Assembly (NCBI RefSeq): GCF_004006665.1
Contig: NZ_QOCL01000003.1
Location: 620,001 to 684,000, forward strand
From: Halobacteriovorax sp. HLS
GTDB taxonomy: Bacteria > Bdellovibrionota > Bacteriovoracia > Bacteriovoracales > Bacteriovoracaceae
DNA: 64,000 nt
Direction of reading: 5' to 3'
A model generated the notes under the pieces. The model saw nothing but the letters and a program-made list of their open reading frames with translations, was not told the DNA's origin and did not search any database. Within the stretch, counting starts at the first letter, position 1. Every line of letters starts with the position of its first letter. Positions 25,086 through 32,316 of this stretch are shown here, piece after piece. Made by a program: the position numbers and the translations under genes.

Positions 25086-25463
25086 ATGAAAAAACAACTA
25101 GTTACAATTTTTGCGCTCTTAATATCTCAAGTGAGTCTAGCAAGCTTCATTCAAGTAAACCTTGTAGAGCAAGAAGAGGCCCTGATAAGTATTCTTACAG
25201 ATTCTAATGGAATGACGCTTTATACTTTCGACGTAAATTCTGAAAATCAATCAAATTGCCATGGAGCTTGTCTTGTAACTTGGCCTGCTTTTACAACAGA
25301 GCACGAAACTCTTCCTACACCATTTGGTGTTCATCTAAGAGACAATGGGGAGTTGCAAGTAACTTTAAATGGCGAGCCTCTGTACTTCTTTATAGGAGAT
25401 AAAAAGATCGGAGATATTAACGGTGATAATATTGGGCAAGTTTGGCACATTATCAATTTTTAA
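25086..25463 (+). CDS. Secreted PF03640-type (Lipoprotein_15/COG4315) protein
   Basis: A signal peptide (about residues 1-19, ending VSLA) precedes a domain with LTDSNGMTLYTFDV and SNCHGACLVTWPAF. These are the repeat motifs of the secreted family PF03640, including the CxxxC pair (C58, C62) and the WP. The family is often found with electron-transfer or stress proteins, but its chemistry is not established. An AGGATAAG ribosome-binding site precedes the ATG. It is the first gene of a four-gene cluster with a YceI protein and two cytochrome-like proteins. Confidence 0.85.
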   Translation: MKKQLVTIFALLISQVSLASFIQVNLVEQEEALISILTDSNGMTLYTFDVNSENQSNCHGACLVTWPAFTTEHETLPTPFGVHLRDNGELQVTLNGEPLYFFIGDKKIGDINGDNIGQVWHIINF

Positions 25464-25487
25464 ATTTATTAAAGTTAGGAGAAAGTA

Positions 25488-25982
25488 ATGAAATTGTTTT
25501 TTATTTTAGTTTTAATGATTAATACAACTTATGCAGCAACTATGAATATGAAAATCAATTTCAATGCTTCTACTAATGTACCTGGTATGAATATCAGCGG
25601 AGAGGCCCTACAAGAAATAAGCGGGAATATTGAATTAACTGATAAAAAGATTAATAAAGTTAATGTTTCATTTGAGTCAACTTCATTAACAACTGGAATG
25701 CAATTAAGAGATGAACATCTGCACAAGATGTTAAAAAAATCAAAATTGGAATTTATAAATACTTCTGAATGTCTATTTGAGGATTCAAAGTGCGAGATGG
25801 AAGGAACTTTTAGTATTGCATATAAAAAAATCAAATCTAAATTCTTAATTACTAGAGAAGGAGAAACTCTTTTATGCTCAATCATAATTAAGCTTAGTGA
25901 CTTATTTCTAAAGAAACCAAGCTTTGCAGGAGTTAGCGTTAATGACGAGGTAAATGTCACAATAGAAGGTACAGTGAAATGA
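25488..25982 (+). CDS. YceI-family periplasmic protein
   Basis: A signal peptide (ending TTYA, about residue 17) is followed by a YceI-like lipocalin fold: SGNIELTDKKINKVNVSFESTSLTTGMQLRDEHL is reminiscent of the family core in which small ions separate a long amphiphile-binding tunnel. YceI proteins bind polyisoprenoid lipids such as octaprenyl derivatives or quinones, which fits a redox cluster. One Cys pair (ECLFEDSKC) is present. Its stop overlaps the start of the next gene (ATGA). Confidence 0.8.
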   Translation: MKLFFILVLMINTTYAATMNMKINFNASTNVPGMNISGEALQEISGNIELTDKKINKVNVSFESTSLTTGMQLRDEHLHKMLKKSKLEFINTSECLFEDSKCEMEGTFSIAYKKIKSKFLITREGETLLCSIIIKLSDLFLKKPSFAGVSVNDEVNVTIEGTVK

Positions 25983-27028
25983 AATCATTATTAGTACTTC
26001 TTTTAACACTATCAGCTCATGGATATGAAAACATGATAGTAAAAGGGTACTCAAGTTGCATTGCTTGTCATAAGTCAGCTGAAGGAGGCGGGCTTCTTAC
26101 GGAATATGGTAAGTATATTTCAAATACCAGCTCTTATATTAGTTCAAAAAACTTTAAAACTGATCAATCTCGTTTCAATTACGCACTTCAGTTTAGATAT
26201 GCAAAGATTGATGCAAATGGTTCAAAGAGAAGTTTTCCAATGCAATCTGATATTTTAACAAATATAAACTTCAAAGAAGCTGGTGAAGTCTTTATTGATA
26301 TTGCGAGAGCACCAGAGTCTCAAGCTATTGCATCTGGTATAGAGGAGCCTAAACAATCAGATTTATGGTTCTTTAGAAAAGCAATATATCATTATAAAAA
26401 CTTCTTCATAGGGAGACAGAGATTTAATCTTGGATTAAACCTTGTCGATCACACAACTCTAAATAAATCACTAAATAGAATGAATGTTAGTGATCTTGCA
26501 TCAACTATAGGCTTATTGAAAGTGACTAAAGACTCTAGTAAAAAAGTATTTCTCTTTGGACCAAGTTTTCAAGAAAACCGGATTAATAAGGAGACTGGTA
26601 TCGCAGTTGATTACAGAAAGTATATATCTAAGAATCTTAACGTAGGTGGCTTCTCTTACTACAGCTTAGGAGAGACAATTGACAGAGGTAGCATAGGCCT
26701 TAACTTCAAAGCAACTATTTCGAAATGGGCACTATTTTATGAAGGTGTTTATAGCAGACGAGAGTTTAAAAAAGGAAGCAGTTTAGATCAGAACTCAAGT
26801 TTAATAAGACTAAGTTTTTTTCCTTATATGAGTACGTTAATATTTATAAATTATGAATTTGCAAATCGTAACAAAAACTTTGAGCTAGAAGAAACAAGAG
26901 TTGGATTTGGAACGAGATTAAAGATCTGGAAATGGATTTCTTTTCAATATGATCTGAAGAAAATTGAACGAAATAGTGTCGAGGAAAATATTTCAATAGC
27001 GCAACTATTTTTAAACATATGGGGATAA
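25979..27028 (+). CDS. Outer-membrane beta-barrel with N-terminal c-type heme motif
   Basis: A short signal peptide (about residues 1-15) is followed almost at once by CIACH (C27-H31), a c-type heme-binding motif, in a short region with conserved Gly residues (EGGGLLTEYGKY). The remaining roughly 290 residues alternate in the manner of an outer-membrane barrel (FNYALQFRYAKID, FFIGRQRFNLGL, ISFQYDLKKIE). A monoheme segment joined to a barrel could pass electrons across or at the outer membrane. It is translationally coupled to yceI (ATGA overlap), and the next gene follows after 1 nt. Confidence 0.75.
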   Translation: MKSLLVLLLTLSAHGYENMIVKGYSSCIACHKSAEGGGLLTEYGKYISNTSSYISSKNFKTDQSRFNYALQFRYAKIDANGSKRSFPMQSDILTNINFKEAGEVFIDIARAPESQAIASGIEEPKQSDLWFFRKAIYHYKNFFIGRQRFNLGLNLVDHTTLNKSLNRMNVSDLASTIGLLKVTKDSSKKVFLFGPSFQENRINKETGIAVDYRKYISKNLNVGGFSYYSLGETIDRGSIGLNFKATISKWALFYEGVYSRREFKKGSSLDQNSSLIRLSFFPYMSTLIFINYEFANRNKNFELEETRVGFGTRLKIWKWISFQYDLKKIERNSVEENISIAQLFLNIWG

Positions 27029-27029
27029 A

Positions 27030-27365
27030 ATGAAAAAGAATATTTTCATAATTTTAAGCTCTTTATTTATATCATGTTCTGAACAAGGGACAAATGAAGC
27101 TGCTCAGTTTGTCAGAATTAATCTGGAAGAGATTGAGAAAATAGAGCTTTCTTTTATAAAAGAAAAGATACTTATGCCAAAGTGTATCAGTTGCCATGGC
27201 TGGATAAGTGACGATTCAAAGATATTAAGTCGAGTTGTCGCAGGTGAGCCAGAGAGTTCAATGTTATATAGAAGAACGAATGATGGAACGATGCCCTTCG
27301 GTGGTCCACCCCTAACGAAGGATGAAGTGACTTTGATCTATAAATATATTAAAGATTTAGAATAG
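27030..27365 (+). CDS. Cytochrome c lipoprotein
   Basis: A lipobox (LFISC, C16) anchors this 111-residue protein in a membrane. It carries one heme motif, CISCH (C52-H56), and a distal GTMPFGGP (M88) that is the likely sixth heme ligand, giving a standard class I cytochrome c of minimal size. It ends the LysR-linked cluster and could exchange electrons with the heme-barrel encoded just upstream. Confidence 0.85.
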   Translation: MKKNIFIILSSLFISCSEQGTNEAAQFVRINLEEIEKIELSFIKEKILMPKCISCHGWISDDSKILSRVVAGEPESSMLYRRTNDGTMPFGGPPLTKDEVTLIYKYIKDLE

Positions 27366-28550: not shown

Positions 28551-28694
28551 ATACTTCGCCATTATAAAAGGTTTTTAAAACTGAATAACTCGGTTTTTTA
28601 AGATTACCTAATTATAACAAATGTTTTATTTGTTTTGTGTAAATAACAGCCTAGGTTTATAATTTTATTACAAAATATAATAAAGAGGTTGTTT

Positions 28695-28898
28695 ATGAAG
28701 TTGATATTTTGCATCTTGTTTATCTCAGTGTCGTCATGTGCGAATGTAGAACAAATTGATAGAGGTCTATTGTCGAAAAAAATTATGCAACTTGACCCCC
28801 ACCCTGAAGAGTCTGTTTTCAGGAATGAAGTGAGAAGTTTTAGAGAAGGTGCAATTGGTGGAAGTGAAGCCGTTGGTGGTGGTTGTGGTTGTAATTAA
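28695..28898 (+). CDS. DUF4266 lipoprotein with Gly-Cys C-terminus
   Basis: The start is ATG 28695 behind AAAGAGG. A lipobox (SVSSC, C15) predicts a small lipoprotein of 67 residues. The body (LSKKIMQLDPHPEES) and the end (EGAIGG..., GGGCGCN) match DUF4266, whose members end in a glycine-rich tail with CGCN. The two cysteines may bind metal or form a redox pair; this is inference. It is the first gene of an operon with DUF3570, thioredoxin-like and ApbE proteins, and its tail region overlaps the start of the DUF3570 gene. Confidence 0.85.
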   Translation: MKLIFCILFISVSSCANVEQIDRGLLSKKIMQLDPHPEESVFRNEVRSFREGAIGGSEAVGGGCGCN

Positions 28899-30063
28899 GT
28901 TTTTAAAAAATAACTGGAAAGAAATATTTCTAGCTTTTTTAACACTACAGAACGCTTTTGCTGAAATGATGGAGAAGGGGAAAACAAGAGTTAAGAAGGT
29001 TTTCAATCTTTATCACCAAAATAGTAATGATGGAAGACAGGTCATAGATGGTACAGGTCGTGAAGAAGCTAATGTAATTGAACCTATGGTCTTTATCGAA
29101 CATCAAATTACAGAAGATACTGCAATTAATGGAAGAGTTGTCTTTGATGCCTGGACTGCTGCAAGTGATACGAAACTTGATAACTATACTGGTGCAAGTG
29201 GAACACCAATTATGGGCCAAACGAGAGTCGCAGCTAACGTAGGTGTTCAAAGTGAGAAAAAGGTTTTAGCAAATAGATGGACTTATGGTGCTAATCTTGG
29301 ATTTTCTAGTGAGTATGATTATCGATCATTAAATGGAAGTTTGAATATTTCAAGGTCGTTTGCCAAAGATAATTTTACTCTCGGAGTTAGTGTTCAATAT
29401 TTCTTAGACGAAGTGGACCTATTTCAAGATTTATCAAACCCACAAAACGCTGTGATATCGACAGGGCTTGAGCGTAAGATATTTGCTACAAGCCTAACTG
29501 CAAGTCAAATCCTAACGATAAGAGATATTGTTCAATTTGGAGTTACTTTTGCGCGAGCTTCGGGAGTTCTTGAGTCTACAGCAAGTACTGTTGATATCTC
29601 AGGAGTTAGAGCAGTTGAGAGCTTACCAGATACAAGAAGTCGTTATGCACTTTCCTCTAAGTGGGTGCATGGACTAAGCCAAACAAGTTCTATTAATTTA
29701 AGTTATCGCTACTATTGGGATCAGTGGGATTTAACGTCTCATACATTTAGAGGTGCTTACTTATTTGATATCGAAGAGGATGAGTCTTATATAGAAATCT
29801 TTGGGCGTGTTCACGATCAGAGCTCTGTTGAATTCTATGCCGATAATTTTAGTCAGGCTCAAACTAATATGACAAGTGACTCAGACCTACAAGAATTTAC
29901 AAGTTATGAAACGGGGATCTTTTACGAATCATCACTTGAAGATCGAAAAGTATTTGGTTTTGATCTTGAAGATGTAAACATCTCGCATAGTATTGTTGGT
30001 GGTTATCGTACAAACGGTATGCGCTATGGTTACTATCAAATGGGATTAAATTACAGTTTTTAG
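28885..30063 (+). CDS. DUF3570 outer-membrane beta-barrel with ApbE-type flavinylation motif
   Basis: The start is uncertain among GTG codons at 28876, 28879 and 28885. I use 28885, which gives a signal peptide (IKFLKNNWKEIFLAF ... QNAFA) directly. The frame overlaps the DUF4266 gene end, so translation is coupled. The protein is a DUF3570 barrel ending in MGLNYSF. Near the mature N-terminus it has DNYTGAS (D99 to S105; T102 encoded at 29188-29190), which matches DxxTGA[TS], the ApbE target motif in which Thr receives FMN through a phosphoester bond. An apbE gene lies two genes downstream. A covalently flavinylated barrel is the inference. Confidence 0.85.
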   Translation: MVVIKFLKNNWKEIFLAFLTLQNAFAEMMEKGKTRVKKVFNLYHQNSNDGRQVIDGTGREEANVIEPMVFIEHQITEDTAINGRVVFDAWTAASDTKLDNYTGASGTPIMGQTRVAANVGVQSEKKVLANRWTYGANLGFSSEYDYRSLNGSLNISRSFAKDNFTLGVSVQYFLDEVDLFQDLSNPQNAVISTGLERKIFATSLTASQILTIRDIVQFGVTFARASGVLESTASTVDISGVRAVESLPDTRSRYALSSKWVHGLSQTSSINLSYRYYWDQWDLTSHTFRGAYLFDIEEDESYIEIFGRVHDQSSVEFYADNFSQAQTNMTSDSDLQEFTSYETGIFYESSLEDRKVFGFDLEDVNISHSIVGGYRTNGMRYGYYQMGLNYSF

Positions 30064-30071
30064 GAATAATC

Positions 30072-30497
30072 ATGAATAAAGTACTTTTAATAGTTTTATT
30101 AGTTTTAGTATTCAGTCTTGAACTCAGTGCAAAAACTCTTCAAAGCTTTTCATTACCAGTTTATAAACAAGAAAAATCTTTTACGTACAAAGCAGGAAAA
30201 AAGACCCTTATTAATTTTTGGGCCAGTTGGTGTACAAGTTGCATCCAAGAGATACCTATTTTAGAAGAGCTTAAAAGAAAGAATCCAAATGTCACTTTTA
30301 TCGCGATTAATGCAGGAGATAGTCAGAAGAAGATTAAAAAATTTCTTAAAAAAACAGGGTTCTCTTACACCGTTTTGATGGATAAATCTAAGAAGGTCTC
30401 AAAAGAGATGGGGATTTTAAGCCTTCCTCAGACAATTGTTGTTGATGAAAACGGCAACATTTTTTTTCATGAGAATATCCCTCCAGAGTCACTATGA
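30072..30497 (+). CDS. TlpA/ResA-like thioredoxin, periplasmic
   Basis: A signal peptide (about residues 1-20) precedes a thioredoxin fold with WASWCTSC (C54, C57) and the cis-Pro region LSLPQTIVVD. It belongs to the TlpA/ResA type, usually thiol-disulfide reductants in the periplasm. At 141 residues it is short but complete. Its likely clients are the cysteines of the DUF4266 protein or a cytochrome maturation step. Its stop overlaps the ApbE start (ATGA). Confidence 0.88.
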   Translation: MNKVLLIVLLVLVFSLELSAKTLQSFSLPVYKQEKSFTYKAGKKTLINFWASWCTSCIQEIPILEELKRKNPNVTFIAINAGDSQKKIKKFLKKTGFSYTVLMDKSKKVSKEMGILSLPQTIVVDENGNIFFHENIPPESL

Positions 30498-31414
30498 ATA
30501 ATTTATGTGAACTCTCTTTTAAGGCTATGGGCGGGACTTTTACTTATAAAGGCTATCTTGAAAGTAGTATGTCAAAAGAAAAGGCGATAGCTCTTTTTAA
30601 AGATGCTCACAATGAAGTTTTAAGAATTGAAAAAAAGTTTACTGAGTTTGCTCCTTCTTTGATTACAAAGATAAATGACTCGGCTGGATGTGATAAAGTT
30701 TCAATTGATGATGAACTCATCTACCTTCTTGAAAAAAGTGGAGATTACTTTAAGAAGTCTAAAGGTCTATTTGATCCAACTTACGCTAGTTACTTGAGTG
30801 TATGGCGACAAAAAGAAAAACTTGGATTATTAGAGAAGCACAGACTTAAAGCTCTCGTTGATTTTTCTAGAGTTCAAATTAATTTGGATGACAAAACTAT
30901 TTATCTGCCTTTTAAAGATCAAAAAATTGGATTAGGTGGTATTGGTAAAGGATATGCTGTTGATAGAGCATTTAATTTTTTAAAAGAAAATGGGTTTAGA
31001 AACTTCTCAGTTAACGGATCTGGAGATATGAGGGTTCACTCATCTGAAAACGCACCAAGAAAGTGGAAAGTTGGAATTAGAAACCCTTTTTCAATGGATA
31101 GCAGTAAGTCCGCAGGTATAGTTCAAATTGCTAATGGGAGCGTTTCTACGTCAGGTTCATATATTCAGAATAAAAATGATAATTTAAGAGATCACCATAT
31201 CGTAGCAAAACAATATGACGAAACAATTCCAGTAAGTGTTACAGTTGTTGCTGATACTTGTATGGATACAGATGTTTGGGCAACAATTTCTATGGCCCAA
31301 GGAATAGCAGATAGTTTGAAGTCGCTCAATGAACAAAATATTTTTGGAGTTCTTATAGACTCTAGTGGGACATCTCATTTATCAAATAAGGCAATGGCAC
31401 AGTTTGGTTTATGA
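30494..31414 (+). CDS. ApbE-like FAD:protein FMN transferase
   Basis: ApbE motifs are present in order: GGIGKGYAVDRA (148-159), VNGSGDMR (173-180), STSGSYIQ and DHHIV (233-237), and a C-terminal DTDVWATISMAQG, where Asp residues bind Mg2+. The enzyme moves FMN from FAD onto Thr/Ser of a target motif. No signal peptide or lipobox is visible (MNNLCELSFKAMGG), unlike most ApbE proteins, which act in the periplasm. Export may use another route, a start site may be missed, or modification may occur in the cytoplasm. It overlaps both neighbours by ATGA. Confidence 0.9.
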   Translation: MNNLCELSFKAMGGTFTYKGYLESSMSKEKAIALFKDAHNEVLRIEKKFTEFAPSLITKINDSAGCDKVSIDDELIYLLEKSGDYFKKSKGLFDPTYASYLSVWRQKEKLGLLEKHRLKALVDFSRVQINLDDKTIYLPFKDQKIGLGGIGKGYAVDRAFNFLKENGFRNFSVNGSGDMRVHSSENAPRKWKVGIRNPFSMDSSKSAGIVQIANGSVSTSGSYIQNKNDNLRDHHIVAKQYDETIPVSVTVVADTCMDTDVWATISMAQGIADSLKSLNEQNIFGVLIDSSGTSHLSNKAMAQFGL

Positions 31415-32316
31415 AAATATTTTTACTATTAATAATCTTCTTAAACTCTAGTAGTGTCCTTGCACTATCAACGGTGACTCTTCAGATAAAAAAACCAAAT
31501 CATTCGATTTTATTACGATCTAATAAAAACGTATTAGAGTTTAGGCCTAACGCCAGTCTTCATTGGGGAGTAAAGTATTCTACTGACTACTTTTATTTTG
31601 AGTACGGAGGGAAAATTAAAGATACAAACTATGGAAATAGTGACGTAGGCAACAACTCATATAAGAGTTTTAGGATTGGGCTGCCAATAAAGAATTTTTT
31701 TATAAGGCTTTATTATCAAGAGTGGATAGGTTTTAGTAGTGATGAAAGAGATGAGTCTTCTTGTGAATACTGCTTAGAAAGAGAAAGACTGACAAGTAGA
31801 GAAAGTAGTATAAATCTCACGTACGCTTTAAATTCAGACTTTGATATGAGAGCACTTAACTCTGATGGATCAAGAGGTGTTAAACCTTCATCTTCATGGT
31901 TGTTTTTAGGTTTTTACGACAGATTTAGAGTCCACGATTCAGGTGGTCTAATCCAAGAAGACTCGCAAAATAAGTTTACATTTTTTAGCACCTTACAAAC
32001 AATTGAAGCTCAACAATTTGGGGTAGGACTTGGGTATGCCTTTCTCTATCCTTTCAGTACCTTTTATTTAGGATTATCTGGAAACTTAGGTGTCGGTTAT
32101 CAAGAGAATCGTCTTGATGAAATGATTAATAACAGAGAAGTGAAAAAAGCAGCACTAAGTCACTGGAGCCTGAAAGTAAACTTAGGTACTCAAGGCGATG
32201 GTTTAAATGTTGGTCTAAAAGGATATCTTTTTTCTAACGTGTATAAAGTTGGTGATAGCCAAAATGTAGCTAATTTAAATTATAGTATTTACTCTTACAT
32301 GAGCTATAGCTATTAA
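31411..32316 (+). CDS. Outer-membrane beta-barrel-like protein, unknown
   Basis: A signal peptide (about residues 1-19, ending VLAL) is followed by strand-rich sequence ending in aromatic residues (YSYMSYSY), a barrel-type C-terminus. A CEYC pair (in ESSCEYCLERE) lies in the middle and could be a disulfide or metal-binding loop. It is the last gene of the DUF4266-DUF3570-Tlp-ApbE operon (ATGA overlap), so it likely works with the DUF3570 barrel. No family name was recognised. Confidence 0.65.
   Translation: MKIFLLLIIFLNSSSVLALSTVTLQIKKPNHSILLRSNKNVLEFRPNASLHWGVKYSTDYFYFEYGGKIKDTNYGNSDVGNNSYKSFRIGLPIKNFFIRLYYQEWIGFSSDERDESSCEYCLERERLTSRESSINLTYALNSDFDMRALNSDGSRGVKPSSSWLFLGFYDRFRVHDSGGLIQEDSQNKFTFFSTLQTIEAQQFGVGLGYAFLYPFSTFYLGLSGNLGVGYQENRLDEMINNREVKKAALSHWSLKVNLGTQGDGLNVGLKGYLFSNVYKVGDSQNVANLNYSIYSYMSYSY

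Follow-up and report, generated by a model that had tools for sequence, protein, structure and literature searches.

The 64,000-nucleotide stretch of Halobacteriovorax sp. HLS analyzed here (the window, in whose positions all coordinates are given) harbors a cluster of five genes, all on the + strand (28689-32316), that raises a question of compartment: where in the cell, and by which enzyme, would a flavin be attached to a protein predicted to end up in the outer membrane? The prevailing view is that flavoproteins of the periplasm and cell surface acquire their flavin outside the cytosol from a secreted ApbE, the flavin adenine dinucleotide (FAD):protein flavin mononucleotide (FMN) transferase, a route that requires FAD export. 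Here, the ApbE of the cluster (30494-31414, +; Pfam PF02424, 170 bits for a cut-off of 25.6) has neither a signal peptide nor a lipobox, whereas its candidate substrate, a DUF3570 protein predicted to be an outer-membrane beta-barrel (28885-30063, +; PF12094, 107.2 bits for a cut-off of 25), begins with a predicted signal peptide of 26 residues (28885-28962, +; boundary LQNAFA/EMM), in keeping with the hydrophobic N-termini of the DUF3570 set linked to ApbE. We regard it as probable, though well short of certain, that these genes specify a flavin electron-transfer system of the DUF3570 type, whose barrel receives its flavin in the cytosol before Sec exports it. The new part of this reading would be the compartment mismatch itself, in that a leaderless ApbE is devoted to an exported barrel; this goes beyond the open-licence literature that we searched.

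That DUF3570 is flavinylated by ApbE is already known. In Meheust et al. 2021 (PMC8238504), DUF3570 is named an ApbE substrate, and the protein of Chlorobium luteolum is reported to be flavinylated by ApbE at two serines in Escherichia coli; the paper also describes gene clusters in which ApbE and DUF3570 occur with a thioredoxin-like protein and DUF4266, and in some cases DsbD; 316 of them lack DsbD. The window operon resembles these clusters in combining ApbE, DUF3570 (PF12094), a thioredoxin-like protein, and a DUF4266 protein (PF14086) with a C-terminal CxC. The initial annotation had located these four genes, together with a second barrel, and all four score above their Pfam cut-offs; the window DUF3570 belongs to an established substrate family and is very likely flavinylated by ApbE, as had been proposed.

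To place this operon in context, we surveyed 369 genomes of the phylum, in which DUF3570 occurs in 43 genomes, 31 of them in the family of the window (coded f1). All 31 have an adjacent ApbE of the DUF3570 type, and DUF4266, the TlpA-like protein, and ApbE adjoin DUF3570 in every one wherever the contig allows, the order being either TlpA–ApbE or ApbE–TlpA and the other neighbors varying. A fixed gene set amid varying neighbors suggests that the DUF3570 cluster is a self-contained unit. Elsewhere in the family, an ApbE of this type is found in only two genomes, both times at a contig end (beside a truncated DUF3570 in G019, and itself cut by the contig end in G056). The expectation that a motif-bearing DUF3570 should track with apbE is thus borne out, the two co-occurring in all genomes of the family that have DUF3570, while conservation of [ST]GA[ST], also expected, holds for 26 of the 32 readable DUF3570 proteins with an adjacent ApbE; the other six read TGES, TGQS, TGTS, or TSAS, with the Asp and Ser retained in all. 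As a side observation, one DUF3570 clade (L069, L070, L071, and L074) combines TGES or TGQS with shortened ApbEs in which a conserved MGG reads MNC or MNS; a coevolution of the two changes was considered and set aside, one clade of four plus two single cases being too few to claim it.

Which residue would then carry the flavin? The window protein contains DNYTGAS (site 2, D99-N-Y-T-G-A-S105, 29179-29199, +, with residues numbered from the GTG start codon, 28885), a canonical ApbE motif; a match to D..[ST]GA[ST] is expected only 0.003 times from the composition of the protein. The initial annotation had recognized this motif and designated T102 (29188-29190) as the acceptor. Because FMN goes onto the final residue of D-x-x-[ST]-G-A-[ST] (PMC12052999), the acceptor should instead be S105 (codon 29197-29199), which we put forward as a firm prediction. 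A second, imperfect site had been missed: site 1 (D88-A-W-T-A-A-S94, 29146-29166, +) aligns with the canonical DSLTGAS of the genomes G207 and G251, with Gly replaced by Ala (DxWTAAS). Whereas two [S/T]GA[S/T] motifs are described for DUF3570 in PMC8238504, the window protein thus has a canonical one (D99xxTGAS105) and, at the equivalent of the classical site, a TAAS variant (D88xWTAAS94), with the Asp and Ser invariant in both. S94 is a possible second FMN site, and is given this lower standing than S105 because such a Gly-to-Ala change lowers flavinylation in another ApbE target (reviewed in PMC12052999). In the family, D88, S94, D95, D99, S105, and G106 are invariant in 29/29 DUF3570 proteins whose median pairwise identity is 40%, and the perfect TGAS is displaced downstream by 11 residues relative to the canonical position. 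Across all 40 aligned DUF3570 proteins, site 1 keeps its Asp and Ser without exception. This shifted tandem site also goes beyond the open-licence literature searched. One may ask whether the TGAS could be structural or incidental, with the window DUF3570 carrying no flavin: the six deviating homologs out of 32 speak for it, and the Asp and Ser of site 1 are invariant even where the motif reads TSAS, so that a structural role is conceivable. Given, however, the strict linkage to apbE, the rarity of the motif by composition, and the homolog flavinylated at two serines (PMC8238504), we deem this highly improbable.

The state of the enzyme, which the initial annotation had also overlooked, changes where the modification must occur. 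Across the survey, all 33 ApbEs adjoining DUF3570 are devoid of a signal peptide (best 10-residue Kyte–Doolittle mean of 0.39-1.86), whereas a signal sequence, frequently with a lipobox, is present in 29 of 30 unlinked ApbEs, which come mainly from these genomes (Mann–Whitney p = 1e-10, relatedness ignored); the one exception is truncated by its contig. The other weak or unlinked ApbEs examined in the window family likewise have signal or membrane sequences, except in G019 and G056, and in the operons whose ApbE is leaderless, hydrophobic N-termini are mostly present in DUF3570, DUF4266, and TlpA. The window enzyme otherwise resembles solved ApbEs (e.g., 7esa, 1e-21), with which the blocks GGIGKGYA (148), TSGSY (219-223), HHI (234), and TD (259-260) align. 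This pattern differs from the frame of Meheust et al. (PMC8238504), whose genome survey is built around extracytosolic ApbE. A leaderless ApbE also stands beside DUF3570 in G207, in G251, and on a Vibrio chromid, whose cluster comprises TlpA, DUF4266, DUF3570, ApbE, and DsbD.

Could these ApbEs nonetheless enter the periplasm without a recognizable signal and modify the barrel there, as elsewhere? Homologs in the lineage coded f8 and in Hymenobacter are indeed secreted. However, none of the 33 linked ApbEs has a hydrophobic N-terminus, and there is no upstream room: the window ApbE starts with MNNLCELSFKAMGG, and its open frame of 313 codons exceeds the 306-residue open reading frame by only 7, which leaves no space for a missed signal peptide; the open frames of the other linked ApbEs likewise offer little or none. 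The leaderless enzymes are also richer in cysteine (mean of 2.6 vs. 1.1, and higher in 20 of 23 within-genome pairs). We therefore think unrecognized export quite unlikely.

Alternatively, a lipoprotein ApbE could act on DUF3570 in trans and flavinylate it in the periplasm, the leaderless neighbor serving another cytosolic target or acting as an accessory. Periplasmic flavinylation is the textbook route, and the window genome does encode another ApbE, one that has a lipoprotein signal (G000:C1:12551). The latter is nevertheless of a kind that accompanies FMN_bind (NqrC-like) proteins and forms a clade separate from the leaderless ApbEs, which, save for one contig-edge case, are not found away from DUF3570 in the window family. 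In five genomes with DUF3570 (G004, G005, G007, G040, and G041; 91-100% complete), no ApbE other than the leaderless one occurs, and FMN_bind proteins are absent. We hence judge modification in trans unlikely: a signal-bearing substrate paired with a signal-less enzyme, in genomes devoid of any other ApbE, argues for modification before export. Two known systems help to situate this arrangement. Klebsiella likewise has a leaderless and a lipoprotein ApbE in one genome, the cytosolic one acting on a soluble fumarate reductase, but that target never leaves the cytosol (review PMC12052999), whereas in the window the only candidate target carries a signal peptide and has the outer membrane as its predicted destination. 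The pairs of NqrC or RnfG with a lipoprotein ApbE, one of which exists separately in the window genome, involve the same enzyme family and the same D-x-x-[ST]-G-A-[ST] rule, but in them an FMN_bind domain is flavinylated on the periplasmic side, and their ApbE belongs to the other clade.

Lineages outside the window family differ in arrangement. In those coded f8, f9, and f12, whose DUF3570 proteins form one clade, the order is DUF3570–TlpA–DUF4266 with adjoining CxxCH cytochrome-like proteins, site 1 reads DxLTSAS, DxVTSAS, or DxxTSSS, and a secreted ApbE lies 2-10 kb off on the opposite strand in the 7 genomes, outside G271, with a long enough contig. We had considered the 11 DUF3570 proteins of these lineages as a contrast lacking both apbE and TGAS and dropped them, the secreted ApbE 2-10 kb away being of the DUF3570 type; since they form a single clade, the presence of the motif and the linkage to apbE do not amount to many independent observations. 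Beside these results, it was observed that TSAS/TSSS DUF3570 proteins occur with a c-type cytochrome-like lipoprotein (CxxCH) next to DUF4266 at L035, L036, L037, L038, L039, and L040, as well as at L042, L044, L045, L057, and L073. In the ApbE phylogeny, the secreted enzymes of f8, f9, f12, and Hymenobacter join the leaderless ones of the window family, apart from the NqrC-type lipoprotein ApbEs (Shimodaira–Hasegawa-like approximate likelihood ratio test, SH-aLRT, 96), which points to a DUF3570-specific ApbE lineage with a signal-less branch in the window family. In the best tree, the leaderless enzymes of G207, G251, and Vibrio form a group of their own, which favors two independent losses of the signal.

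As to the barrel itself, the window DUF3570 has a signal peptide, amphipathic strands, and a C-terminal aromatic residue, as looked for in outer-membrane beta-barrels: it ends in Phe, the last residue in 43 of 44 DUF3570 proteins. The fold is thus suggested by the C-terminal Phe and the amphipathic strands and not by a good structural model. The loop bearing S94 and S105 seems to follow the third strand, and might perhaps be extracellular or folded into the lumen. The claim of the initial annotation that DUF3570 is a redox protein at the outer membrane is, on these features, plausible rather than demonstrated. In the main text of PMC8238504, the word "barrel" is absent, and the passages found there state no outer-membrane location for DUF3570, nor is DUF3570 described as a barrel in a later survey (PMC11334425). 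Our search of the open-licence literature found nothing combining apbE, flavin, and Bdellovibrio, which does not by itself prove novelty.

On this basis, the following sequence of events can be proposed. DUF3570 would be a Sec-exported outer-membrane barrel with FMN covalently bound on S105, and possibly on S94 too; the neighboring leaderless ApbE would flavinylate its unfolded precursor in the cytosol, and the flavinylated chain would pass SecYEG before being inserted by the beta-barrel assembly machinery (BAM). The reading in which this dedicated ApbE loads FMN in the cytosol, and the cofactor travels with the unfolded chain through SecYEG and BAM to end up in a surface or lumen loop, has, in our estimation, about an even chance of being right. 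In the C. luteolum experiment, E. coli produced both proteins from constructs with truncated signals, and the flavinylated DUF3570 was recovered from the pellet (PMC8238504), so that a never-exported, probably unfolded chain can be a substrate. Passage of FMN also seems feasible by size, as the SecYEG lumen can widen to about 2.4 nm when its substrate bears a rigid tail (PMC6028853). Electrons would run from a DsbD-family protein encoded elsewhere to the TlpA/ResA-like periplasmic thioredoxin (30072-30497, +, with a signal peptide; Pfam Redoxin 79 bits and AhpC-TSA 69 bits; CTSC at 30231-30242) and the CxC lipoprotein DUF4266 (28689-28898, +; PF14086, 57.6 bits for a cut-off of 27), then to the barrel flavin and on to an onward acceptor, for which iron has been proposed in relatives. 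We infer this electron route, as well as insertion by BAM, by analogy with the protein families and with Meheust et al. (PMC8238504).

Several points weigh against cytosolic flavinylation of an exported barrel. The secreted DUF3570-type ApbEs of f8, f9, f12, and Hymenobacter imply that periplasmic modification is possible for this family. The twofold loss of the signal is favored by the tree, but a single origin of the leaderless state retains a p value of 0.32 in the approximately unbiased test. Signal peptides were called from a hydrophobicity score, the best 10-residue Kyte–Doolittle mean, and not from a trained predictor. There is no DsbD within the window cluster; the sole DsbD_TM match in the window genome is unlinked (G000:C1:306512), whereas in G251 and Vibrio it is adjacent. 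Lastly, there is no confident structure of DUF3570, AlphaFold2 with a two-sequence input reaching a predicted local distance difference test (pLDDT) of 36 with about 14 strands, and we found no solved relative.

The cluster is compactly arranged. DUF4266 and DUF3570 overlap by 14 nucleotides, TlpA and ApbE by 4, and ApbE and the second barrel by 4, so that the coupling by overlaps proposed in the initial annotation stands at these three junctions but not between DUF3570 and TlpA, which are separated by a gap of 8 nucleotides. The DUF4266 lipoprotein probably starts at the ATG 28695 and has the lipobox SSC and a C-terminal GGGCGCN containing the CxC; its CGCN end is kept in all homologs except one damaged plasmid copy. 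The GTG start of DUF3570 (28885) lies inside the CxC codons of DUF4266, and a GTG at the same 14-nucleotide overlap occurs in 29/29 loci of the family with both genes readable, which argues that translational coupling of lipoprotein and barrel is strictly kept. In these 29 loci the first Cys-Gly codons (TGT GGN) of the CxC tail supply the GTG (28875-28901 in the window), and the preceding Gly codons (GGAGG in many loci) could double as the DUF3570 ribosome-binding site, one stretch then being coding motif, start codon, and perhaps Shine–Dalgarno sequence. Neither an Rfam match nor a convincing promoter was found in the cluster. The DUF3570 clusters of two Hymenobacter plasmids (L080:3476-4839 and L081:4866-6130) seem damaged, with ApbE and the end of DUF4266 frame-disrupted in one and DUF3570 broken into two parts in the other. 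Downstream, the second barrel-like protein (31411-32316, +) has no Pfam match; it would be a secreted, lineage-specific accessory, occurring after ApbE in the window and at only 3 other surveyed loci, all of the genus coded g13. Upstream (25086-27365) lies a possible further redox group that includes Lipoprotein_15, a YceI-like protein, a barrel-like protein with an N-terminal CIACH heme motif (25979-27028), and a cytochrome-like lipoprotein with CISCH (27030-27365); this group is not conserved alongside the DUF3570 unit.

If the proposed reading is true, a leaderless ApbE serving an exported barrel would get round the need for FAD export, and the Sec and BAM machineries would handle a chain that bears a bulky covalent cofactor. 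The DUF3570 cluster would then provide a simple, testable system for outer-membrane flavin redox chemistry in this phylum.

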